Assembly (NCBI RefSeq): GCF_019966595.1
Contig: NZ_JAINFJ010000001.1
Span: forward strand, 310,001 to 374,000
From: Oricola indica
GTDB taxonomy: Bacteria; Pseudomonadota; Alphaproteobacteria; Rhizobiales; Rhizobiaceae
Direction of reading: 5' to 3'
DNA length: 64,000 nt
The position numbers and the translations under genes were made by a program. Below the pieces are notes generated by a model. The model did no database searches, had not been told where the DNA came from, and worked only from the letters and a program-made list of their open reading frames with translations. Position 1 is the first letter of the stretch, and each line of letters opens with the position of its first letter. This document shows positions 35,480 through 46,448 of this stretch, piece by piece.

Positions 35480-36217
35480 TCAGGATTCGATTTCGCAGGC
35501 CGAGCGCAGCCGCTCGAGATCCGGAACCACGACGGTGCGATTGTTTTCCACCTGAATCACGCCCGCCTTGCGAAGCTTGGTGATCTGGCGGCTGACAGTC
35601 TCGATCGTCAGGCCGAGGAAATCGGCGATATCGGAGCGTTTCAGCGGCAATTCGAACTCGATCGAGCCTTCATGCACGTCGATTTCCGGGTCGATATGCG
35701 AAGCGATCAGGAACAGGAAGCTGGCGACCTTTTCCGACGCGGACTTGCGGCCAAGTGTCAGCATCCAGTCGCGCGCCTCGTCGAGTTCGTCGAGCGCCTG
35801 TTCATGCAACTTGTGCTCGAGATCCGGCGATTCGCGGATCATGTCCTCCATGACCGATCTGGGGAACGAACAGACACGTACATCGGTGGCCGCATCGGCG
35901 ATCACGTTGCTCTGGTCACGAAAGGGCCGGCCCATGAAATCCGGGGCGAATTGCAGGCCGACGATCTGCTGGCGTCCATCGGCGAGAAGCTTGGAGAGCT
36001 TAACCACGCCGCGCAGGATGTTCGAGTAGCGGTGCACATCCTCGCCGGCCGACAGCAACTCATTGCCGCTCTGGTAGCTGTATTGCTTGGTGTATTTGTT
36101 CAGCTTGGTCAGCTGTTCAGGGGTCAGCGCCCCGCAAATACCCTTGTGGCGCGCCTCGCAGGCCCGGCAGATCGCCGGGATATCCGAATTGTGAATGTCC
36201 TTACGCGCTGTGTTCAT
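35480..36217 (-). CDS. fnrL: Oxygen-sensing Crp/Fnr-family regulator FnrL/FnrN
   Basis: The 245-residue protein has the FNR cluster cysteines near the N-terminus (CRACEARHKGIC, about residues 18-29) and the fourth cysteine in the beta-barrel (DVRVCSFPR, about 114). It can therefore hold an oxygen-labile [4Fe-4S] cluster. A cyclic-nucleotide-like barrel (about 45-150) and a long dimer helix are followed by the helix-turn-helix LKRSDIADFLGLTIETVSRQ (about 192-211). The E..SR recognition pattern is that of TTGA-N6-TCAA binding proteins. The two FNR boxes at the cco operons are its obvious targets. The gene is convergent with hemN. No FNR box was seen in its own upstream region. Confidence 0.94.
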   Translation of the reverse strand: MNTARKDIHNSDIPAICRACEARHKGICGALTPEQLTKLNKYTKQYSYQSGNELLSAGEDVHRYSNILRGVVKLSKLLADGRQQIVGLQFAPDFMGRPFRDQSNVIADAATDVRVCSFPRSVMEDMIRESPDLEHKLHEQALDELDEARDWMLTLGRKSASEKVASFLFLIASHIDPEIDVHEGSIEFELPLKRSDIADFLGLTIETVSRQITKLRKAGVIQVENNRTVVVPDLERLRSACEIES

Positions 36218-36394: not shown

Positions 36395-37174
36395 CTAGGA
36401 AAGAGCCCCCGGACCGGGTACCGCGTTGGGCGGGTTCTTGCCGGCGATGATCATGCCGAGCATGTCATCCTCGGTCACCTCATCCACCTTCACCGTGCCG
36501 ACCAACTGCCCGTTTTTCATGACGTTTGCCCGATCGCACAGATTCTTCACCTGATGGATATCGTGGTCGATCAGGAAGATGCCGATACCATCGCGCTTCA
36601 ACTCCTGGATCAGGTCGGCAACCATCTTGGTCTCGTGCGGTCCGAGCGCCGCGGTCGGCTCGTCCATGATCAGGATCTTGGCGTTGAAATAAACCGCCCG
36701 CGCGATAGCGACCGATTGTCGCTGACCGCCGGACAACCCCGAAACCGGCGTGGAAAAACGGCGGAAATTGGGATTGAGGCGGTGCATGATGGTGCGCGTT
36801 TCCGCCTCCATCGCATTGTCGTCGAGCATCCCGGTCGCGCTGACGATTTCACGGCCGAGAAAAAGGTTCGAGGCCGCGTCGAGATTATCGGCCAGCGCAA
36901 GCGTCTGGTAGATGGTCTCGATGTTGTAACGGCGCGCGTCGCGCGGGTTATTGATAACCGCCTTTTCCCCATTGATGTAGATCTCGCCGCCATCGCGCTG
37001 GATCGCGCCGGAAAGCATCTTCATGAGGACCGATTTGCCTGCGCCGTTGTGACCGAGGACGCCGACGACTTCGCCTGGATTGACGTCGATCGTCACGTGA
37101 TCGACGGCCTTGATGCCGCCGAAGGTTTTCTGCATGTCGCGCAGTTCGACGAGGGGCGTACCGTTGCTGCTCAT
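36395..37174 (-). CDS. xylG: Xylose-type sugar ABC transporter ATPase
   Basis: From the ATG at 37174 the protein has 259 residues and a single ABC domain. Motifs are Walker [12 protein letters not shown] (about residue 40), signature [11 protein letters not shown] (about 147) and Walker [13 protein letters not shown] (about 168), with the switch histidine in FLIDHD. The E. coli XylG has two fused ABC domains; this single-domain form is usual for the alphaproteobacterial FrcA/XylG branch and works as a homodimer. It overlaps the stop of the permease gene by four bases. It powers the XylF-XylH importer. Confidence 0.92.
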
Positions 37175-38484
37175 ATTTTCGCCCCCGTACGCCTGCGATA
37201 AATGATGTCGATCAGCACCGCCACGACAAGGACCGCGCCGACGACGATGTTCTGGAACGGAGCATCGACACCAACCATGGCCATGCCGGATTGGAGCGAC
37301 TGCATGATCAGGGCGCCCAGTATGGCGCCGTGAATTGTTCCCAGCCCGCCCGACAGCGCAGTACCGCCAATGACGGCCGCCGCGATGACGCGCAGTTCGT
37401 CCAGCGTACCGATGTCGTTGGAATGGAAGGACAGGCGCGCCGAGGCGACGACACCCGCCAGCGCGCACAGAGCGCCCATGATGGCGAAGACCTTGACCGT
37501 CAGAAGCCGGGTGTTGATGCCAGACAGTTCCGCGGCATCGGGATTGCCGCCAGTCGCAAAAATGTATCGCCCGAGCCTGGTCCGCTGCGCCACGACCGTC
37601 ATCATGACCGCCACGGCGATGAGCAGAAGCACGGAGATCGGCAATCCGTATCCGGAGGTATAGCCCTCCGGCATGGTTTCGCCGCGCGCCTCGAAGATGC
37701 GCTCGAGACGCGGCGTGGGCACCTGATAGGCGTTCAGAATCGCTACGAAACCGAGGATGGCGACCGAAACGAGCGCTGCGAGCAGGACCTCGGCCCAGAG
37801 CGGCTTGACCGGGAATTCATGCGCGATCTTGTTCGCGCGCCCCCGCCACATCGCATAGATGGAGAAAACGACGGCAACGATGCCGAAGATCCAGCTCCAT
37901 GTCGGGCCGAGCGTTCCGTCGATACCACCGAAAAGCGTGAAGTTCTCGTCCAGCGGACCGATCGTCTGGCCCGTCGTCAGGTACCAGGCGACGTTCCGCC
38001 AGACCAGCAGACCGCCCAGCGTCACGATAAAGGCCGGAACGCCGAGATAGCCGACGATATAACCGTGAAACGCCCCAATCAGCGTTCCGGTCAGAACACC
38101 GACGAGAATCGCGATCGGCGCGGTCGCGGGATGATTGAGGCCGAGGCCGAGCCATTCGGGCGTCACGACCGTCTGGGTCATGGCCATCATGGCGGAACAG
38201 GTCGCCAGCAGCGAACCCACCGACAGGTCGATGTGGCGCGTCACGATGATGAAGACCATGCCGGTCGCCATGATGGCGACGGAGGCGGTCTGGATCGTCA
38301 GGTTGAATACGTTGCGCGGCGTCAGGAACCGGCCGTCGAAGAGACCGCCCGTCAAGAGATTGAAGATCAGGCAGATTACAACGAATGCGCCAATCATGCC
38401 GAGCAGGCGCGTATCGAGTTCGAGAGCGGCGAAGAAGTTGCGCGGTTTGGCCTGCGCACTCGCTGCGGGGGACGTGTCGGTCAT
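37171..38484 (-). CDS. xylH: Xylose-type sugar ABC transporter permease
   Basis: The 437-residue integral membrane protein belongs to the BPD_transp_2 permease family of pentose and ribose importers. The TRHIDLSVGSLLATCSAMMA segment (about residue 80-100) is the family signature. A second one, GINTRLLTVKVFAIMGALCA, occurs later, with AAAVIGGTALSGGLGTIHGA near residue 375. A long cytoplasmic or periplasmic insert (about 200-265) distinguishes XylH from the shorter RbsC. It lies between xylF and xylG. The 94-base gap to xylF holds a strong hairpin that could lower permease relative to binding-protein expression. Confidence 0.92.
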   Translation of the reverse strand: MTDTSPAASAQAKPRNFFAALELDTRLLGMIGAFVVICLIFNLLTGGLFDGRFLTPRNVFNLTIQTASVAIMATGMVFIIVTRHIDLSVGSLLATCSAMMAMTQTVVTPEWLGLGLNHPATAPIAILVGVLTGTLIGAFHGYIVGYLGVPAFIVTLGGLLVWRNVAWYLTTGQTIGPLDENFTLFGGIDGTLGPTWSWIFGIVAVVFSIYAMWRGRANKIAHEFPVKPLWAEVLLAALVSVAILGFVAILNAYQVPTPRLERIFEARGETMPEGYTSGYGLPISVLLLIAVAVMMTVVAQRTRLGRYIFATGGNPDAAELSGINTRLLTVKVFAIMGALCALAGVVASARLSFHSNDIGTLDELRVIAAAVIGGTALSGGLGTIHGAILGALIMQSLQSGMAMVGVDAPFQNIVVGAVLVVAVLIDIIYRRRTGAKI

Positions 38485-38578: not shown

Positions 38579-39613
38579 TCAGTTACAGGGGGACGGACCG
38601 TTCTCGACGCCCTGGCAGAGGTCTTCCTTGGAAATCCAGCCGGCATCGACGACAACGTCGAGGTTGTCGGCGGTCACCGGTACCGGAGCCAGGAACTTCG
38701 CGGTCATGGTCGTGCCGGAAGGCGAGGTCCATTCAGCCGCACCGTCGATATCGGCCATCGCCGTGCCATCGGCCAGCTGTGCGGCAATCTCGCCGGCAGC
38801 CTTGCCGAGTTCACGGGCGTCTTTCCAGACGCTGACCGTCTGGGTGCCCTTGGCGACACGGTTGAGAGCCGCATGGTCGCCGTCCTGTCCCGATACCGGG
38901 ATGCCTTCCATGCCCTGCGCGGTCAGCGCAGCGACAACGCCGCCGGCGGTGCCGTCGTTGGAGGCAACCACCGCATCGACATTGTTGTCCTGCGCGGTCA
39001 GGATCTGCTCCATGTTGCGCTGGGCGTTGGCCGGAAGCCAGCCGTCGGTGTAGGCCTCACCGACGATGGTGATGTCACCGGCGTCGATCGCGTCCTGAAG
39101 GATTTCCTGCTGTCCGCCGCGAAGGAAGTCCGCGTTCGGATCGGTCGGCGACCCCTTGATCATGACGTAATTGCCGGTCGGCTGCGCCGCGAAGACAGCA
39201 CGCGCCTGCATGCGGCCCACCTCGACGTTGTCGAAGGTCAGGTAGAATGCACGATCGTCTTCGATCAGGCGGTCATAGGCGATGACCGGAACGCCCTCGT
39301 CCGCAGCGGCCTGAACGGCCGGAATGATAGCCTGGGTATCCTGCGCCAACACGATCAACGCATCGACACCCTGCGCCATCAAGCTCTCCACGTCGGAAAG
39401 TTGCTTGGCCGAGGACGACTGGGCGTCTGCGGAAATATAGGTGTCGCCATTCGCTTCGATGGCGCCCTTCATTGCGGCTTCGTCGGTCTTCCAGCGTTCT
39501 TCCTGGAAATTCGACCATGACACGCCGATTGTCTTGCCTTCGGCCCAGGCGGAACCCGCCATGGCAACCGACATCACTGCGCCCGCTAGGAGCGCGCTCG
39601 TAAACTTCTTCAT
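38579..39613 (-). CDS. xylF: D-xylose ABC transporter periplasmic binding protein
   Basis: From the ATG at 39613 (GGGAGGT ribosome site) the protein has 344 residues with a signal peptide (MKKFTSALLAGAVMSVAMAG, cleavage after SAWA). The mature part is a type I periplasmic binding protein. The XylF-like features are GVSWSNFQEERWKTDEAAMK near the start, DALIVLAQDTQAIIPAVQAA (about 85-105), VIAYDRLIEDD (sugar-binding arginine-aspartate region, about 113), KGSPTDPNADF and VVASNDGTAGG. It captures xylose and delivers it to XylHG. The promoter region carries two TTGCAnTGCAA palindromes that the divergent ROK regulator probably binds. No xylose isomerase or kinase gene is in the window. Confidence 0.94.
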   Translation of the reverse strand: MKKFTSALLAGAVMSVAMAGSAWAEGKTIGVSWSNFQEERWKTDEAAMKGAIEANGDTYISADAQSSSAKQLSDVESLMAQGVDALIVLAQDTQAIIPAVQAAADEGVPVIAYDRLIEDDRAFYLTFDNVEVGRMQARAVFAAQPTGNYVMIKGSPTDPNADFLRGGQQEILQDAIDAGDITIVGEAYTDGWLPANAQRNMEQILTAQDNNVDAVVASNDGTAGGVVAALTAQGMEGIPVSGQDGDHAALNRVAKGTQTVSVWKDARELGKAAGEIAAQLADGTAMADIDGAAEWTSPSGTTMTAKFLAPVPVTADNLDVVVDAGWISKEDLCQGVENGPSPCN

Positions 39614-39757
39614 AATTACCTCCCGGTGCATCGAAATGCAGGTACAAGGGTCGGATCACAGATCCGCGCCCCGTTTGCGAAGCCCTTTAATTCAAGCCTC
39701 AAAAAAAATCGTGACTCAAAACAGCTTGCGTGTCAACATGAACCAAAGTGGAATAAC

Positions 39758-39789
39758 TTATTGCAATGCAATAATTTTTTGCATTGCAA
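39758..39789. promoter_or_regulatory. Twin operator palindromes between xylF and the ROK regulator
   Basis: TTATTGCAATGCAATAA (39758-39774) is a perfect odd-centred palindrome, and TTGCATTGCAA (39779-39789) is a second copy of its core TTGCAnTGCAA. Their centres lie 18 bases apart. They sit 28-60 bases before the ROK start and about 145 bases before xylF, a fitting place for ROK-family XylR control of both directions. Confidence 0.75.
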
Positions 39790-39817: not shown

Positions 39818-41041
39818 ATGACCACGGTTCTCCGTTCCGACGACATGCGCAGGCGCAACCGTAATCTGATCATGGAAATCGTGCGTCGCAAGGGTGCGAT
39901 CAGCCGCAGTGCGATAGCCCAGACCGCCGCCCTGAGCCCGGCCACCGTATCAACGATCTCCAACGATCTGATCGCCGAGGGCGTCCTCGTCGCGCAAGGC
40001 AACGGGTCGGCCGCCAGCAGCGGGCGCGGCCGTCCGAGCGTGCACCTGTCGATCAACCCGGAATTTCGCCATGCCGTGTTGATCATCCTGAAGATCGGCG
40101 CGCTCAACGTCTCGATCATCGACTACGCCGGCGCTGTCGTCGCCCACCAGGACTTCCATATCGACATGGCCAATATCCGGGCGGAGGAATTCCGCCGCAC
40201 GCTGATCGCCGAGGTTCGCCAGACCTGGGACACATCCGGCCTCGACGAAGCCCAGCTCGCGCGTATTTCCGTCGCCATCCAGGGCACGACCGACACTGCC
40301 GGCGTCCACATGCTCCGCTCGCCCATGACGCCCTTGACCGACGTGCCGATCGGCCCTTGGCTGGAAGAGGCCTTTGGCGCGCCCGTTCGCCTTGCCAATG
40401 ACTGCGACCTGATCGCCCGCGCGCTCAACTGGCGCGATCCGGAACGCTATTCGGACAATTTCGCCGCGATCCTGCTGGCGCACGGCGTCGGCATGGGCCT
40501 TTTCCTGCGCGGCCAGATCATCAACGGTACCAAATCGTCGGGTACGGAATTCGGCCATATGCTCCACCGCCCGGACGGAGCGCTGTGCCGTTGCGGGTCG
40601 CGCGGTTGCATCGAGGCGAATGCCGGCGATTATGCGATCCTGCGCCGATATCGGGGCGACCCGGCGGACAGCGCCCCCGCGAGCCGTGTCTCCGCTAGGG
40701 AAATCGCCGCAATCGCCGAAGCCGGCCGCGCCGGCAACGAGCGCGCGCTGGACGCACTGGCTGCAGCAGGGCGCGCGCTGGGATCGGGCCTTGCCGGCAT
40801 TTACGCCCTGGTCGATCCGTTCCGCATCGCCTTCGTCGGACACGGCGCCGCAGCCTTCAGCCTTATGGAACCCGCACTGCGTCAAACACTGGAGAACTCC
40901 AATGCAAGAGCTGCCAGGGATGTCCCCATCGACCTATTTCCCGACGAGATGCCGCTGGTTCGCGAGGGCTGCTGCATCGACGCGCTGTCGGATATCGATG
41001 CGCGCCAGGCCGCCAAGGTCAATGACTTTGCCCGGGCTTGA
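39818..41041 (+). CDS. xylR: ROK-family transcriptional regulator, XylR-like
   Basis: The 407-residue protein starts behind AGGAGG. The N-terminal winged helix-turn-helix (RKGAISRSAIAQTAALSPAT, about residues 25-50) is followed by a ROK sugar-kinase-like domain. That domain has the zinc motif CRCGSRGCIEANAG (about 260) and the GVGMGLFLRGQI segment that in kinases forms the phosphate region. ROK repressors bind sugars, here presumably xylose, and release DNA. Position divergent from xylF with twin operators supports this role. Its last 20 bases overlap the di-haem oxidoreductase gene, so that gene is co-transcribed with the regulator. Confidence 0.9.
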   Translation: MTTVLRSDDMRRRNRNLIMEIVRRKGAISRSAIAQTAALSPATVSTISNDLIAEGVLVAQGNGSAASSGRGRPSVHLSINPEFRHAVLIILKIGALNVSIIDYAGAVVAHQDFHIDMANIRAEEFRRTLIAEVRQTWDTSGLDEAQLARISVAIQGTTDTAGVHMLRSPMTPLTDVPIGPWLEEAFGAPVRLANDCDLIARALNWRDPERYSDNFAAILLAHGVGMGLFLRGQIINGTKSSGTEFGHMLHRPDGALCRCGSRGCIEANAGDYAILRRYRGDPADSAPASRVSAREIAAIAEAGRAGNERALDALAAAGRALGSGLAGIYALVDPFRIAFVGHGAAAFSLMEPALRQTLENSNARAARDVPIDLFPDEMPLVREGCCIDALSDIDARQAAKVNDFARA

Positions 41042-42458
41042 GGCCAGACGCCGGCTCGCTGCGATCCTCGCGGCGCTCGCCTGCGGCGTAGCCGCGCCCG
41101 CCATGGCCGACGACGTGCCTTGGGCCGAGCGCGCCATCACCGAACATGTGGACCAGTCGGCACTGAAAGGAACGCTCGACCGCGAAACGCTTCTCGACCT
41201 GATCGACAAGGGCGAGAAACTGTTCACCGCAAAGTTCACCGAACTCGACGGCGCGGGACGCAAGATGGCGACCCAGGCGATCATCCCGACCAAGCGCAAG
41301 AGAGCGCCCGATGCCGCGTTCCAGCGCATCGCCGGCATGGACGCGAATGCGTGTTCGAGTTGCCACAGCCAACCCGTCATCGGCGGTGCGGGCGACTTCA
41401 CGGTCAACGTCTTCGTCAATGAGGGCTTTACCAACGCCGATTTCGACACGGTCGATCCGCAGTTCTCCAACGAGCGCAACACCAATCACCTTATGGGCGC
41501 CGGGCTCGTTGAGCTGGTGGCGCGCGAGATGTCTGACGACCTTCAGGCGATCCGGCGCGACGCACTGAAGAAAGCCCTCGAAGCCGGTGAGCCAGTGACG
41601 GCCGCGCTTGTCAGCAAGGGCGTCTCATTCGGCAAGATCACAGCAGAACCGGACGGCATCCTGGACATATCCGGGATCGACGGTGTCGATACCGACCTCG
41701 TGATCCGCCCCTTCTCGCAGAAGGGCGTGATGACATCCCTGCGCCAGTTCGCCGTCAATGCAATGAACCAGCACCACGGCATGCAGGCCGAGGAGCGGTT
41801 CGGCGCGCGCTGGACCGGCGAGGACGATTTCGACGAGGACGGCCATGCCGGCGAACTGACCGACGGAGACATCTCGGCGCTGGTTGCCTGGCAGGCGACC
41901 CTGCCGCCGCCGATCCGCGTGACACCGCAGAACGAGGCGTGGCGGAACGCCGCCGATGCGGGGTCAGCAACCTTCGACGCCATCGGCTGCAACAGTTGCC
42001 ATATCCGCGCCCTGCCCCTGTCGAGCCTCGAATTCGCCGATCCCGGACCGCTCGACGCGGCAGGCACGCTGCGCGACGGCGAGATCGAGGGCGCTGTCTA
42101 CGACCTCGCGCTGACCGAATGGGCCGAGACGCTGGAGCGCGACGCCGACGGCAACTATCTCGTGCCGCTATTCGGCGACCTGAAGCGCCACGTCATGACC
42201 GACCGGCAGGTCGCCGCGCTCGGCAATGAATTGCTGGCGCAGCGCTTCGTCGAGCGCAACCAGTTCCAGACCGCCGAATTGTGGGGCATCGGCTCGACCG
42301 CGCCCTATGGCCATCGCGGCGACTTCACGACGCTGGACGGCGTGATCCGCGCGCATGGTGGCGCGGCGCGGCCCGCCCGCGACGCCTATCTTGACCTCGC
42401 CGATACGGAACGCAGCGCACTCGTCGCCTTCCTCAAGACACTGGAGATCCCGCAATGA
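41022..42458 (+). CDS. Di-haem c-type oxidoreductase (DHOR / DUF1111 family), exported
   Basis: I start the gene at the ATG at 41022, inside the end of the ROK gene. It gives a signal peptide (LAAILAALACGVAAPAMA) and 478 residues. Two haem c motifs are present, CSSCH (about residue 107) and CNSCH (about 325), the spacing of the DHOR family of MauG/cytochrome-peroxidase-like proteins. Other family features are GAGLVELVAREM, KGVMTSLRQFAVNAMNQHHG (about 229-248) and the closing TAPYGHRGDFTTLDGVIRAH. It should act in the periplasm in electron transfer or peroxide-linked oxidation; the substrate is unknown. Its stop overlaps the next gene by four bases. Confidence 0.88.
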   Translation: MTLPGLEARRRLAAILAALACGVAAPAMADDVPWAERAITEHVDQSALKGTLDRETLLDLIDKGEKLFTAKFTELDGAGRKMATQAIIPTKRKRAPDAAFQRIAGMDANACSSCHSQPVIGGAGDFTVNVFVNEGFTNADFDTVDPQFSNERNTNHLMGAGLVELVAREMSDDLQAIRRDALKKALEAGEPVTAALVSKGVSFGKITAEPDGILDISGIDGVDTDLVIRPFSQKGVMTSLRQFAVNAMNQHHGMQAEERFGARWTGEDDFDEDGHAGELTDGDISALVAWQATLPPPIRVTPQNEAWRNAADAGSATFDAIGCNSCHIRALPLSSLEFADPGPLDAAGTLRDGEIEGAVYDLALTEWAETLERDADGNYLVPLFGDLKRHVMTDRQVAALGNELLAQRFVERNQFQTAELWGIGSTAPYGHRGDFTTLDGVIRAHGGAARPARDAYLDLADTERSALVAFLKTLEIPQ

Positions 42459-44110
42459 CCCGCACGCTTCTCCTGTCCACCCTTCTGGCTGCCCTGTTCG
42501 CGACGCCGCTGGCCGCACAGGACGCGCCTCCCACCCTTTCCATGGACATTCCGGTCATGGTCGAGGAGGCGGCGGCCGCCGGCATCGACCACAGCTATAC
42601 CGGGCCGTGGGAGTATTTCGTCGGCGGTGGCGCGGCGGCCTTCGACTGCAATGGCGACCGCCTTCCCGACCTTGCCGTGGCGGGCGGCACCTCGAAAGCC
42701 AGCCTCTATGTCAATCGCAGCGCGATCCGCGGCGAGCTCGCCTTCGAGGAAAAGAAGGACGCCCTGCCCGACGACACGCGCGACAAGGTGACCGGCCTCT
42801 ATACGCTCGACATCGACAATGACGGCCATCGCGATCTCGTCATGCTGCGCGTTGGCGAGAACATCATTTTGAAGGGCGGCCCCGACTGCAGTTTCACGGA
42901 AGCCAACCGCGCATTCGCCTTCGACGGCGGACGCGCATGGTCGACGGCGTTTGCCGCGACCTTCGAGCCGCATCTGCCCTTCCCGACGCTCGCTTTCGGC
43001 AATTATGTTGATCGCTCCGCGCCGGGCTCTCCCTGGGGCACCTGCCACGACAACGTGCTGCTGCGCCCGCAAGGCGCGGGCGGCGAACGGCCGGACTATT
43101 CGGAGCCGAACGTACTGACGCCGGGCTACTGCGCCCTCTCGATGATCTTCACCGACTGGAACCGCTCCGGCGAACCGGCGCTGCGCGTCACCAATGACCG
43201 GCAATATTACCGCGAAGGCCAGGAACAGCTCTGGCGCGTTTCGCCGGACCGCCCGCCGCGCCCCTATCGGCGTGCTGACGGCTGGCGGCGCGTGCAGATA
43301 TGGGGCATGGGCATCGCCGAAGCGGATCTGAACGCCGACGGCTATCCAGAATACGCGCTGACTTCGATGGGCGACACCAAGCTGCAGACCCTGGATGACG
43401 AGGCCGAGGCGGACCGCCCGGTTTACCGCGACATCGCCTTTGACGAGGGTGCGACCGCGCACCGGCCCTATACGGGCGACGATCTGAAACCCTCGACCGG
43501 CTGGCATGCCGAATTCGACGATTTCAACAATGACGGGCGGCTCGACCTGTTCATCGCCAAGGGCAATGTGCAGCAGATGCCGGACTTCGCGGCCTTCGAT
43601 CCGGACAATCTTCTGCTCGGCAATGCCGGCGGCGGGTTCTCGGAAGCCGGCGACAAGGCGGGCATCGCCCTGCCCCGGCGCGGACGCGGCGCAGCTGTGG
43701 CCGATTTCAACCTGGACGGCATGCTGGACCTCGCCGTAGTCAATCGCGAGGCGCCGATGAGCCTGTTCCGCAATGCCGGCGCGCGCACCGCAGACGGCAG
43801 CGCGCGGCAGACCGGCAACTGGCTGCAGATCGAATTGCGTCAGGACGGCATCAACCGTGACGCCATCGGCGCGACGGTCACGGTCAAGTCGGGCAACGAA
43901 ACCCGCACCCGCAAGGTGCATGTCGGCGGCGGCCACGCCTCCGGCTCGGCAGGCTTCATCCATGTCGGCACCGGCGTTGCAGAGCGCGCGCAGATCCGCG
44001 TGCAATGGCCCGACGGCGAATGGAGCGCACCGTTCCGGGTCTTCGCCAACAATTTCGTTGTCATCGAACGCGGCGCGGCGCAGGCGCAATACTGGTATCC
44101 GCCGGAATAG
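42455..44110 (+). CDS. Exported CRTAC1-like protein with FG-GAP/VCBS repeats and ASPIC/UnbV domain
   Basis: The 551-residue protein has a signal peptide (MTRTLLLSTLLAALFATPLA). Calcium-binding FG-GAP/VCBS-type repeats follow, with the motifs AAFDCNGDRLPDLAVAGG, LDIDNDGHRDLVML, ADLNADGYPEYALT, DFNNDGRLDLFIA and DFNLDGMLDLAVV, probably making a beta-propeller. The end (about 455-540) is the ASPIC/UnbV domain, with IGATVTVKSGNETRTRKVHV and ending in ARIRVQWPDG-like sequence. Such proteins are secreted or surface-associated. It is translationally coupled (ATGA) to the di-haem oxidoreductase, which suggests a working pair: perhaps a redox enzyme and its binding or scaffolding partner. Confidence 0.88.
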   Translation: MTRTLLLSTLLAALFATPLAAQDAPPTLSMDIPVMVEEAAAAGIDHSYTGPWEYFVGGGAAAFDCNGDRLPDLAVAGGTSKASLYVNRSAIRGELAFEEKKDALPDDTRDKVTGLYTLDIDNDGHRDLVMLRVGENIILKGGPDCSFTEANRAFAFDGGRAWSTAFAATFEPHLPFPTLAFGNYVDRSAPGSPWGTCHDNVLLRPQGAGGERPDYSEPNVLTPGYCALSMIFTDWNRSGEPALRVTNDRQYYREGQEQLWRVSPDRPPRPYRRADGWRRVQIWGMGIAEADLNADGYPEYALTSMGDTKLQTLDDEAEADRPVYRDIAFDEGATAHRPYTGDDLKPSTGWHAEFDDFNNDGRLDLFIAKGNVQQMPDFAAFDPDNLLLGNAGGGFSEAGDKAGIALPRRGRGAAVADFNLDGMLDLAVVNREAPMSLFRNAGARTADGSARQTGNWLQIELRQDGINRDAIGATVTVKSGNETRTRKVHVGGGHASGSAGFIHVGTGVAERAQIRVQWPDGEWSAPFRVFANNFVVIERGAAQAQYWYPPE

Positions 44111-44130: not shown

Positions 44131-45291
44131 TCAGCCCCGGTCCAGCACCTCGACGGCAAGAATAGTCGGCATGTGGCGGGCGATTTCCTGCCATGTCTCG
44201 CCTTCGTCGGCGGTGGCGAAGACCGATCCCGAATTGGTGCCGAAATAGACACCGGCGGGATCGCGGCGGTCGCCGCCCATCGCCTGGCGCAGAACCGTGA
44301 AATAGCAGGCTTCCTGCGGCAGGCCCTTGCGCATGTCCTGCCATGTCTGGCCGCCGTCGCGCGAACGCCAGACCGCCGCCGCCGCATCCGGCGGGAAGCG
44401 GCCCTCCATGTCGCCATTGAGCGGCAGCGTGAAGATGGTTTCGGGATCGCGCGGATGGACGCGGATCGGGAAGCCGAAGGTCGACGGCAAGCCCGCCGTG
44501 ATGTCGTCCCAGCTTCGCCCGCCATCGGTGGACCGCCAGACGCCATGATGGTTCTGCTGATAGAGCAGGTCGCCGTCGCCTGGCGCGCGCATCATGTTAT
44601 GAACGCAGTGCCCGATATCGCCGTCGCGCGGCGCGGCGGGATGATCGTGATGGGCGCATGACTCGGCATTGGACAGCCGATTGCGGCGCTCCCACGACGT
44701 GCCGCCATCCTCGGTAGCGAAGACGCCGGCCGCCGAGATGCCGATCCACATCTTGGCCGGATCGGACGGATCGGAGACGATTGTGTGCAGCACCAGCCCG
44801 GCCGCGCCGGGGCTCCAGGAGTCGGCCGTGGGGTGATTGGCCAGCCCTTCCAGATGGTCCCAGGTTCTGCCGCCATCCTTGGAGGCAAGCAGGCGAGCCG
44901 GCTTCGTGCCCGCATAGAGCGTGCCATGCGCGTAATGCAGCGACCAGATCTGCGAGAACTTGTCCTCGAAGGGTGGCGGCGTGTCGGTCCAACCGATCAT
45001 CGCCGCGAATTCCGGATCGTTGGCGGCCCACTCGTCCATGGTGCCCTTGGTGAGCTTTGTCAGCTCCCAGGTCTCGCCGCCATCCTCGGAGCGCCAGACA
45101 CCCGCGCCGTGCCAATCCCCACCGCCCCCGGCCCATAGCGTGCCGGTCTCCGGGTCGCCGATGACATGGTTGATCGGCCAACCGCCGCAATGCGGCCCCG
45201 TGACCGACCAACCGGAGCGATCCGCGCCGCCCGAAACAAGAAATGCACCCTTCGTGGTTCCGACCAGAACCGTAACCGTGCCATCCGCCAT
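44131..45291 (-). CDS. BNR/WD40-like beta-propeller protein (exo-sialidase-like fold)
   Basis: The 386-residue protein is built from repeated BNR (Asp-box) motifs of the form S.DGG.TW: RSEDGGETWELTK, ASKDGGRTWDHLE, ATEDGGTSWERRN, RSTDGGRSWDDIT, RSRDGGQTWQDMR and ATADEGETWQEIA. Six or more blades of a beta-propeller are therefore visible. It has no signal peptide at the chosen ATG, so it may be cytoplasmic. Similar proteins are often named glycosyl hydrolase or sialidase-like, but the catalytic residues of true sialidases are not recognisable. Role unknown. It ends 20 bases from the convergent CRTAC1-like gene. Confidence 0.8.
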   Translation of the reverse strand: MADGTVTVLVGTTKGAFLVSGGADRSGWSVTGPHCGGWPINHVIGDPETGTLWAGGGGDWHGAGVWRSEDGGETWELTKLTKGTMDEWAANDPEFAAMIGWTDTPPPFEDKFSQIWSLHYAHGTLYAGTKPARLLASKDGGRTWDHLEGLANHPTADSWSPGAAGLVLHTIVSDPSDPAKMWIGISAAGVFATEDGGTSWERRNRLSNAESCAHHDHPAAPRDGDIGHCVHNMMRAPGDGDLLYQQNHHGVWRSTDGGRSWDDITAGLPSTFGFPIRVHPRDPETIFTLPLNGDMEGRFPPDAAAAVWRSRDGGQTWQDMRKGLPQEACYFTVLRQAMGGDRRDPAGVYFGTNSGSVFATADEGETWQEIARHMPTILAVEVLDRG

Positions 45292-45425: not shown

Positions 45426-46448
45426 TCAGCGCCAACCGAGCGCCGGGGCGACATGGGTCAGGATCGCCTCGATGACATGGGCGTTGTAGTCGACGCCGAG
45501 CATGTTCGGCACGGTGAGGAGCAGCGTATCCGCCTCGGCGATTGCCTCGTCGCCCTTCAACTGCTCGATGAGCCGGTCCGGCTCGTCGGCATAGCTGCGG
45601 CCGAAGATTGCCCGCATGTCCTGATCGATGTAGCCGATCTGGTCGCTGTCCTTGCCGCCCCTGCCGAAATACATGCGGTCCATATCGTTCATAAGAGCGA
45701 AGATAGACCGGCTGACGGAAACGCGCGGCGTGCGGGCATGCCCCGCTTCCTGCCATGCGGCACGATAGGCGCGAATCTGCTTTGCCTGCTGAACGTGGAA
45801 AGGTTCTCCCGTCTCGTCGACCTTGAGCGTGGAGCTTTGCAAATGCATGCCGAGTTTCGCCGCCCACACGGCGGTCGCGTCGGAGGCGGCGCCCCACCAG
45901 ATGCGCTCCCGCAACCCTTCCGAATGGGGCTCCAGCCTCAGCAGGCCGGGCGGATTGGGGAACATCGGGTTCGGATTGGGCTGGGCGAAACCCTTTCCGC
46001 TCAGATGCTCGAGAAAGATCTCGGCATGGCGGCGGGCCAACTCGGCGTGGGTCTCCCCCTCGCCCGGCTCGTATCCGAAATAACGCCATCCATCGATCAC
46101 CTGTTCGGGCGAACCGCGGCTGATGCCGAGTTGCAGCCGACCGCCGGCGATCAGATCGGCCGCACCGGCATCCTCGACCATGTAGAGCGGGTTTTCGTAG
46201 CGCATGTCGATCACGCCGGTGCCGATCTCGATCTTCGAGGTCCGCGCGCCGACGGCGGCGAGAAGTGGAAAGGGCGAGCCGAGCTGGCGCGCGAAATGGT
46301 GGACGCGGAAATAGGCCCCGTCGAGACCCAGTTCCTCGGCGGCGACCGCCAGGTCGATCGATTGCAGCAGGGCGTCGGATGCGGTGCGCACCGGCGCGCC
46401 ACTGTCGGGCGACCAGTGGCCGAAGGAAAGAAAGCCGATCGATTTCAT
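45426..46448 (-). CDS. Luciferase-like (LLM-class) flavin-dependent oxidoreductase
   Basis: The 340-residue protein has the bacterial-luciferase TIM-barrel pattern: an N-terminal SIGFLSFGHW-type strand, the DGAYFRVHHFARQLGSPFPL segment (about 40-60) that replaces the usual catalytic HH region, and IEIGTGVIDMRYENPLYMVE (about 73). The sequence GGRLQLGISRGSPEQVIDGW follows. The enzyme should use FMNH2 or F420-like reduced flavin to oxidise an unknown organic compound. It stands alone on its strand with no flavin reductase next to it. Confidence 0.87.
   Translation of the reverse strand: MKSIGFLSFGHWSPDSGAPVRTASDALLQSIDLAVAAEELGLDGAYFRVHHFARQLGSPFPLLAAVGARTSKIEIGTGVIDMRYENPLYMVEDAGAADLIAGGRLQLGISRGSPEQVIDGWRYFGYEPGEGETHAELARRHAEIFLEHLSGKGFAQPNPNPMFPNPPGLLRLEPHSEGLRERIWWGAASDATAVWAAKLGMHLQSSTLKVDETGEPFHVQQAKQIRAYRAAWQEAGHARTPRVSVSRSIFALMNDMDRMYFGRGGKDSDQIGYIDQDMRAIFGRSYADEPDRLIEQLKGDEAIAEADTLLLTVPNMLGVDYNAHVIEAILTHVAPALGWR

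Follow-up and report, generated by a model that had tools for sequence, protein, structure and literature searches.

A putative diheme enzyme and a CRTAC1-type propeller protein at the D-xylose locus of Oricola indica: a conserved gene pair with an apparently exchangeable peroxidase-like partner

The window analyzed here is a 64,000-nucleotide stretch of the Oricola indica genome (NCBI RefSeq assembly GCF_019966595.1, contig NZ_JAINFJ010000001.1, positions 310,001 to 374,000 of the forward strand), and coordinates are positions within it unless assigned to the contig. Its plus strand holds three open frames in a chain. An XylR-like ROK regulator comes first (39818..41041; PF00480, 105 bits), followed by a putatively exported diheme enzyme of 478 amino acids related to the DHOR (DUF1111) family (41022..42458; PF06537, two CxxCH motifs), here called DH, and by a putatively exported CRTAC1-type FG-GAP/ASPIC protein of 551 amino acids (42455..44110; PF13517 and PF07593 above cut-off), here called ASPIC. 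GGAGGAGG precedes the ATG of the ROK gene, and the N-termini of DH and ASPIC carry putative Sec signal peptides, judged by eye. The frames overlap by 20 bases (ROK/DH) and 4 bases (DH/ASPIC), exactly as described in the original prediction, which was made from the letters of this DNA and had seen in the three genes a single expression chain. The DH/ASPIC overlap was exactly 4 bases in 25 of the 32 loci having both genes, with the window counted and start codons chosen by script. Since this overlap recurs and the surrounding neighborhood is found again in genera of the Alpha- and Gammaproteobacteria, the arrangement is not one of chance.

Divergent from the ROK gene, on the minus strand, lie three sugar ABC transporter genes that the original prediction had overlooked. 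It had also not seen a xylose isomerase gene (TIGR02630, 686.8 bits) on the same contig at contig positions 379101-380399, about 25 kb past the DH-ASPIC pair. XylF (38579..39631) passes the equivalog cut-off for D-xylose ABC transporter binding proteins (TIGR02634, 458.5 against 389.55 bits), matches the D-xylose-binding protein structure 3m9w with an E-value of 1.1e-65, and is the only strong XylF of the genome, the next match being 35% identical. The permease XylH (37171..38484, minus strand; PF02653, 132 bits) and the single-domain ATPase XylG (36395..37174, minus strand) fall below equivalog level: the best NCBIfam model for XylH, GguB, gave 291.5 bits under a cut-off of 450, and XylG scored 189 against 723.65 bits, matching only the first half of RbsA/XylG-family models, with orthologues that adjoin XylH. 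At about 259 amino acids, XylG is about half as long as the XylG model (500 positions), which corresponds to a short-ATPase type of transporter. In the available text of PMC10130141, the xylFGH genes of Ruegeria pomeroyi are assigned to glucose plus xylose from mutant growth and drawdown, and a pooled screen failed to recover them for xylose. By analogy, the O. indica transporter may also serve glucose.

The region between xylF and ROK contains a candidate shared operator, TTTAATTCAAGCCTCAAAAAAAATCGTGAC (39686..39715, plus strand), which is a recurrent 30-base motif. With a matrix that was itself trained on these regions it scored 40.0 bits, and four loci of the MauG type described below reached only 3.5 to 7.3 bits; a count of 120 of 120 regions over threshold is therefore not independent evidence. 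A 10-mer related to the core of this motif, AAAAATAGTG, occurred in 37 of 121 xylF-ROK regions, the window having a one-base variant. Two 11-base palindromes, TTGCAATGCAA (39761-39771) and TTGCATTGCAA (39779-39789), lie just 5′ of ROK. The palindrome TTGCAWTGCAA was rejected as the operator since it was exact in only 8 of the 121 regions, all with DH, and the 30-base motif performed better; a guessed 13-base operator pattern gave no more matches in these searches than expected by chance. From its position between the divergent xylFHG genes and its own operon, ROK probably controls both.

The two CxxCH haem motifs of DH are located at residues 111-115 and 323-327, and the C-terminal haem has an APYGH sequence followed by a further histidine, H445. 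DH passes the DHOR model PF06537 (31.9 bits, cut-off 22), but the match is confined to profile positions 429-499 (71 of 499), short of full length, and the rest of the protein was unrecognized. We therefore rejected the classification of DH as a plain DUF1111 protein, since only its C-terminal haem part is spanned. DH resembles DHOR proteins in that this haem domain passes Pfam and in having a histidine placed as in the canonical DHOR encoded elsewhere in its own genome (locus L067); it differs in the extent of the match, the canonical copy scoring 336 bits. Two more genes come after the canonical gene at L067, with overlaps of 4 and 1 bases, and make up a second tight chain. Membership in the MauG or MbnH families was also rejected, with scores far under the cut-offs (TIGR03791, 23.5 against 443.85 bits; TIGR04039, 27.8 against 362.85 bits) and a different residue at the haem-ligand position. 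The distal ligand of the C-terminal haem is a Tyr in MauG and a Met in the cytochrome c peroxidases (CcP). In a profile alignment, H445 of DH aligned with the Met of a solved diheme CcP, so that DH has a His in place of this Met. The arrangement P-[YF]-GH with a His 14 residues on was found in 115 of 115 intact DH proteins, 2 of 117 DH loci having been excluded as cut or broken. The window DH had no match to the gamma subunit model of hydrazine synthase (HZS; NF052341) at an E-value of 0.1. At locus L066, DH is split into two frames, possibly through decay or sequencing error. On an Antarctobacter plasmid (L281), a DH-like protein with 36% identity is flanked by a response-regulator region and a YHYH protein; no ASPIC is listed there, and the protein represents a branch of the DH family that is not paired.

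ASPIC fits the CRTAC1/ASPIC proteins by both of its Pfam domains (FG-GAP_3, 71.2 bits; UnbV_ASPIC, 40.7 bits; both above cut-off), and cartilage acidic protein 1 (structure 9etn, E-value 4e-20) was its only match among PDB sequences with an E-value below 0.7. We found no catalytic or carbohydrate-binding family for it in Pfam, NCBIfam or PDB sequences. A relationship with MbnP was rejected, as TIGR04052 was absent from its NCBIfam matches at an E-value of 0.1. Across 152 homologues, leaving aside a distant protein at locus L233 (37% identity), the residues C65, C145, C197, C226, W162, Y184, R244 and R411 were invariant, as were M285, S304, M305, S347, T348, W350, K369, N371, M375 and D382. H351 was kept in 151 of 152, and D248, R249, Y251 and E257 in 151 of the 151 having a letter at those positions. 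In FG-GAP propellers, the segments on either side of every calcium loop come together on the same face. Given this blade topology, the conserved residues could share one pocket. These residues, and a tie to xylose loci, set the clade of the window apart from other CRTAC1/ASPIC proteins; we know of no bacterial CRTAC1 protein with a known function.

In order to assess conservation of the pair, 297 genomes of the order were searched with the DH protein, and 398 genomes spread over the phylum were sampled separately. The genome protein search scored the best few candidates per genome, and absences of DH, ASPIC and XylF are to be read as soft. Among the matches listed, DH relatives that cover most of the protein at 51-70% identity were present in 34 genomes of the order besides that of O. 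indica; a contig end truncates one of these, and another is split over two frames. The remaining order matches listed were short matches to the C-terminal haem. Neighbors were counted by tblastn because our gene caller, a crude method based on GC by codon position, missed or mis-stranded genes. At these 34 loci we detected ASPIC in 31, XylF in 29, XylH and XylG in 28 each, ROK in 24, and XylA and XylB in 10 each. A second set, the best 80 of 354 relatives from a wider genome scan, came from Oricola, Ahrensia, Hoeflea, Aurantimonas, Mesorhizobium, Kiloniellaceae, Rhodobacteraceae, Granulosicoccus, Thiothrix and others, and gave ASPIC in 80, ROK in 72, XylF in 69, XylH in 68, XylG in 64, XylA in 35 and XylB in 33, many of these stretches ending at contig ends. 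The two sets overlap (e.g., L035/L079 and L038/L135), and their counts are not additive. XylA (TIGR02630) and XylB (TIGR01312) passed equivalog cut-offs on representatives, while the XylB counts may take in other FGGY kinases. The original prediction had named separation of the two genes in other genomes as grounds for abandoning it; instead, ASPIC stood near DH at every one of the best 80 loci and at nearly all of the order loci. Its proposed link to a xylose-type regulator was borne out by the ROK counts and now extends to xylFHG, xylA and xylB.

The association was also visible at the level of whole genomes. Among the 297 order genomes, XylF (E-value 1e-80) was found in 95, ASPIC (1e-30) in 63 and DH in 35; all 35 genomes with DH had XylF, 61 of 63 with ASPIC had XylF, and 34 of 35 with DH had ASPIC (Fisher exact p-values of 3e-20, 6e-36 and 4e-26, respectively, which overstate the association because genomes were treated as independent). 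The phylum sample gave DH matches at an E-value of 1e-90 or better in 8 of 398 genomes, O. indica included, two of them distant (about 34 and 40% identity), and ASPIC in 20 of 398. Some DH-ASPIC pairs lack xylFHG within the stretch although the contig continues (L039, L041, L045, L047, L073, L074 and L101, and L075 on one side). Such cases would suit an explanation in which a mobile xylose operon picked up two unrelated exported proteins that have no tie to each other or to xylose. We consider this very improbable: the four genomes that could be checked (L039, L041, L045, L047) all hold XylF elsewhere, the two genes overlap, and hitch-hiking can hardly account for the swap of partner at one position that we describe next.

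There were 45 ASPIC loci without an adjacent DH, 31 from the order and 14 from the phylum sample, and XylF was present in-stretch at 36 of them (23 of 31 and 13 of 14). At 14 of the 45 (12 of 31 and 2 of 14), ASPIC has a vanadium-haloperoxidase-like (VHPO-like) neighbor, and at 17 (8 of 31 and 9 of 14) a MauG-like diheme neighbor; 3 of the 14 phylum loci (L260, L262, L263) fall outside both groups. One VHPO-like representative was searched against PDB sequences and matched the vanadium-dependent haloperoxidase 4cit with an E-value of 2.6e-76, and all three representatives examined had PAP2 above and VCPO_2nd below cut-off. The motifs K-x6-RP and SGH, which we take to be part of the vanadate site, were kept in 14 of 14 VHPO-like partners, and the strict pattern R-[LMI]-YGG-x-H-x-R in 11 of 14. 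The MauG-like partners had PF03150 above cut-off in 4 of 4 representatives, and P-[YW]-GH with a His 14 residues on was found in all 17 adjacent ones. Six MauG-like genes located away from ASPIC share this feature, five of them in genomes whose ASPIC has no adjacent peroxidase. Six other diheme proteins (the second protein of L101, counted by eye, the first of L180, and those of L275-L278) have PYMH or PYFH (YMH in L101) with Tyr or Met 14 residues on. Of the remaining 11 of the 31 order loci, five belong to genomes with a MauG-like gene of full length at another site (44-61% identical), two to genomes with DH at another site, and three to a single genus taken up below, while one is the distant CRTAC1 protein of L233 (37%). 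A VHPO query matched none of 13 genomes in a set that included no positive control. MauG-like or VHPO-like partners of the same propeller in sister clades could not have been foreseen in the original prediction.

The MauG version is plasmid-borne in Phaeobacter inhibens P78, where a 256-kb plasmid encodes an ATPase, a permease and xylF, and ROK, CRTAC1, cytochrome c peroxidase and aldose epimerase; its annotations read "D-xylose ABC transporter substrate-binding protein," "CRTAC1 family protein" and "cytochrome c peroxidase." P. porticola has the same arrangement. The listing for Ruegeria TM1040 shows ROK-CRTAC1 without an adjacent peroxidase. The clearest single-operon vanadium form, from another class of the phylum (L256), reads xylB-xylA-xylF-xylH-xylG-ASPIC-VHPO-like on one strand.

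We then placed the partner types on an ASPIC phylogeny. The alignment kept 153 rows after partial and duplicate rows were dropped, including those of MauG-type loci L237 and L261, and a quick maximum-likelihood tree was made from 63 of them: all 43 without DH, among them L233 as the outgroup, and 20 chosen from the 110 with DH. The 14 VHPO rows formed one clade with a support of 97 in the Shimodaira-Hasegawa-like approximate likelihood-ratio test (SH-aLRT), and the 15 MauG rows formed another, together with six rows lacking an adjacent peroxidase (SH-aLRT 100); of these six, three genomes carry a MauG-like gene elsewhere. Rows with DH fell outside both clades. Partner labels changed 8 times on the tree, compared to 34.8 in shuffles. 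ASPIC seems to be the component of the module that stays, and the peroxidase-like partner the one that is swapped. DH is likely the older partner, though only likely, because the root depends on one very long outgroup row, and each replacement may have occurred once only.

How might the two exported proteins work together? We tentatively favor an explanation, which we hold with somewhat less than even confidence, in which the peroxidase uses hydrogen peroxide (H2O2) to oxidize or activate ASPIC in the periplasm as part of a D-xylose uptake and use locus. DH and ASPIC would form the periplasmic arm of this locus, possibly one for both xylose and glucose. Because ASPIC is tied to the xylose genes and has invariant polar, Met, His and Trp residues, its propeller would be the functional core, with DH as one of three alternative exported peroxidase-like helpers recruited to it and presumably in physical contact with it. 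Peroxidase action would leave a modified residue or a radical or metal-containing active form, and the oxidized ASPIC would then act on, or bind, a xylose-bearing substrate. Gene order, co-occurrence across genomes, replacement of the partner and residue conservation are consistent with such a scheme. In a bolder version, which we regard as speculative and, as a whole, clearly less likely than not, ASPIC would be an unrecognized periplasmic enzyme with a metal or protein-derived redox site that acts on xylose or on a compound carrying it, activated by dedicated, evolutionarily interchangeable and unrelated peroxidases (two diheme families and one vanadium family).

The idea that ASPIC is oxidized is drawn from the precedents of MopE/SACCP, CorA/CorB, MbnP/MbnH and a fungal peroxidase with its alcohol oxidase. 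According to the accessible part of PMC3912023, CorA/CorB and MopE/SACCP consist of an exported diheme enzyme encoded beside an exported partner on which it is known or thought to act, and MbnP/MbnH is likewise a diheme enzyme paired with an exported partner in the available text of PMC3621798. Even for the CorA-type pair the role of the diheme enzyme is unsettled, since knocking out the diheme partner sped up growth on methane rather than slowing it (work cited in the accessible part of PMC3912023). In fungi, as described in the available text of PMC9770985, a copper radical alcohol oxidase is activated by a peroxidase that is secreted with it and encoded by the adjacent gene; our comparison implies neither sequence relation nor a demonstrated copper radical site in ASPIC. 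The module of the window is like MauG/methylamine dehydrogenase, MbnH/MbnP, SACCP/MopE and CorB/CorA in that the gene for an exported diheme enzyme from the CcP/MauG superfamily stands beside that for an exported partner. It is unlike them in that the partner is an FG-GAP/ASPIC protein with no MbnP match, in that the locus is one for xylose rather than copper or amine, in the low model scores of DH and its His at the diheme CcP Met position, and in the replacement of the enzyme by a vanadium-type protein in a sister ASPIC clade. The MauG relation suggested in the original prediction did not survive as family membership in the model scores. Of the two roles that it put forward for DH, oxidizing a sugar or modifying the propeller as MauG does its partner, the MauG-like action is still the leading inference.

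These precedents also raise the alternative of a copper-handling pair of the MopE/SACCP or MbnP/MbnH type, in which kynurenine made in ASPIC would help to bind copper and the xylose locus would be incidental. The precedent pairs do combine a diheme peroxidase with an exported partner, and Met 285, 305 and 375 and Trp350 are found in 152 of 152 ASPIC homologues and His351 in 151 of 152. We nonetheless judge this improbable. The tie is to XylF (61 of 63 ASPIC genomes), copper genes not having been searched for; ASPIC has no MbnP model match; and vanadium-type partners are not, to our knowledge, makers of kynurenine.

Several observations weigh against activation of ASPIC by a dedicated peroxidase. 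The P-aromatic-GH sequence, which we had considered as a mark of ASPIC partners, was withdrawn as such for DH: two DH relatives without ASPIC (L179, L181) carry PYGH, so P-Y-GH is no pairing mark within the DH family (a third unpaired relative, L180, has PYFH), and the canonical DHOR of L067 likewise has a His at that place. As 34 of the 95 XylF genomes are without ASPIC, the protein is dispensable for xylose uptake or use as such. In two genomes of one genus (L059/L060, L239/L240), DH adjoins XylF while ASPIC is on another contig, and distant DH relatives (about 34 and 40% identity, and a partial one at 31%) occur in three genomes with no ASPIC or xyl genes in-stretch. The VHPO-like proteins match no NCBIfam model and could, by sequence, be phosphatase-like; the MauG-like partners are under every NCBIfam cut-off, and the sixth non-adjacent MauG-like gene with the motif (L272) is in a genome that also has DH. 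Finally, three genomes of one genus, 71-94% complete, have ASPIC at a xylose locus, and DH, MauG-like and VHPO-like proteins were not found in them, the VHPO-like search being the one with no positive control.

The variety of partners bears on two further explanations. The peroxidase and ASPIC may act side by side on an outside substrate, freeing xylose for XylF: ASPIC would bind or cleave a xyloside or a glycan that carries xylose, the rest of which the peroxidase would oxidize; in a variant, ASPIC would be a sugar oxidase whose H2O2 the peroxidase consumes. We think this unlikely but serious, and do not rate it lower because a vanadium-type partner is harder to square with a specific protein substrate; that any peroxidase-like partner serves would favor a shared small molecule. 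A periplasmic source of free xylose would fit a locus made up of uptake, isomerase and kinase, and the invariant R, D, E, K, N, Y and W residues of ASPIC resemble a ligand or catalytic site, yet ASPIC matched no catalytic or carbohydrate-binding family in the databases named above. Each of the three partner types has H2O2-using enzymes among its relatives, and several hosts are marine, some of them judged so by genus, which would agree with a role in peroxide defense. In sunlit sea water, the peroxidase would then clear H2O2 that the cell encounters or produces while using sugar, with ASPIC as its calcium-stabilized scaffold. This we consider quite unlikely, as it leaves unexplained the constancy and conservation of ASPIC, the link to xylose, and the persistence of ASPIC where no peroxidase is adjacent. 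With activation of ASPIC as the preferred reading, the occurrence of different peroxidase types beside the same protein points to an unrecognized oxidation step tied to xylose use, as far as can be judged from sequence.

A sortilin/BNR-repeat protein (44131-45291) and a luciferase-like monooxygenase (45426-46448, minus strand) lie 3′ of the pair; they were in-stretch at only 4 and 2 of the best 80 DH loci, respectively, and thus appear to be local. Flanking xylG is a gene that by eye encodes a Crp/Fnr-like regulator (35480-36217, minus strand), with an apparent relative in the same position at 4 of those 80 loci.

Searches of open-access full text that targeted the DH-ASPIC pair, the partner proteins or the host bacteria gave no description of the pair or of the partner swap. 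The nearest statement, in the available text of PMC12758564, places CRTAC1 FG-GAP genes beside HZS homologues with a diheme CcP-like chain in some bacteria, joined in one clade by ABC binding proteins. Those clusters differ from ours in that their propeller-diheme chain is an HZS relative, which DH, by the gamma model, is not seen to be. The linked, undescribed system proposed in the original prediction thus stands at the genomic level, through linkage, co-occurrence and the lack of a published description in the literature covered. The module is real, widely conserved and, as far as searched, undescribed, while its function is proposed here from sequence comparison. These results tie the bacterial CRTAC1/ASPIC proteins, a widespread and unexplained kind, to a defined sugar pathway and give them a partner enzyme, and since either a haem or a vanadium-type enzyme may stand beside the same protein, the chemistry is narrowed to what both could do with peroxide. 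If the proposed activation is true, xylose use in these bacteria would have an oxidative step, of which none is described in the open-access literature searched, and this would be testable in cultured Phaeobacter, where the locus is carried on a plasmid.

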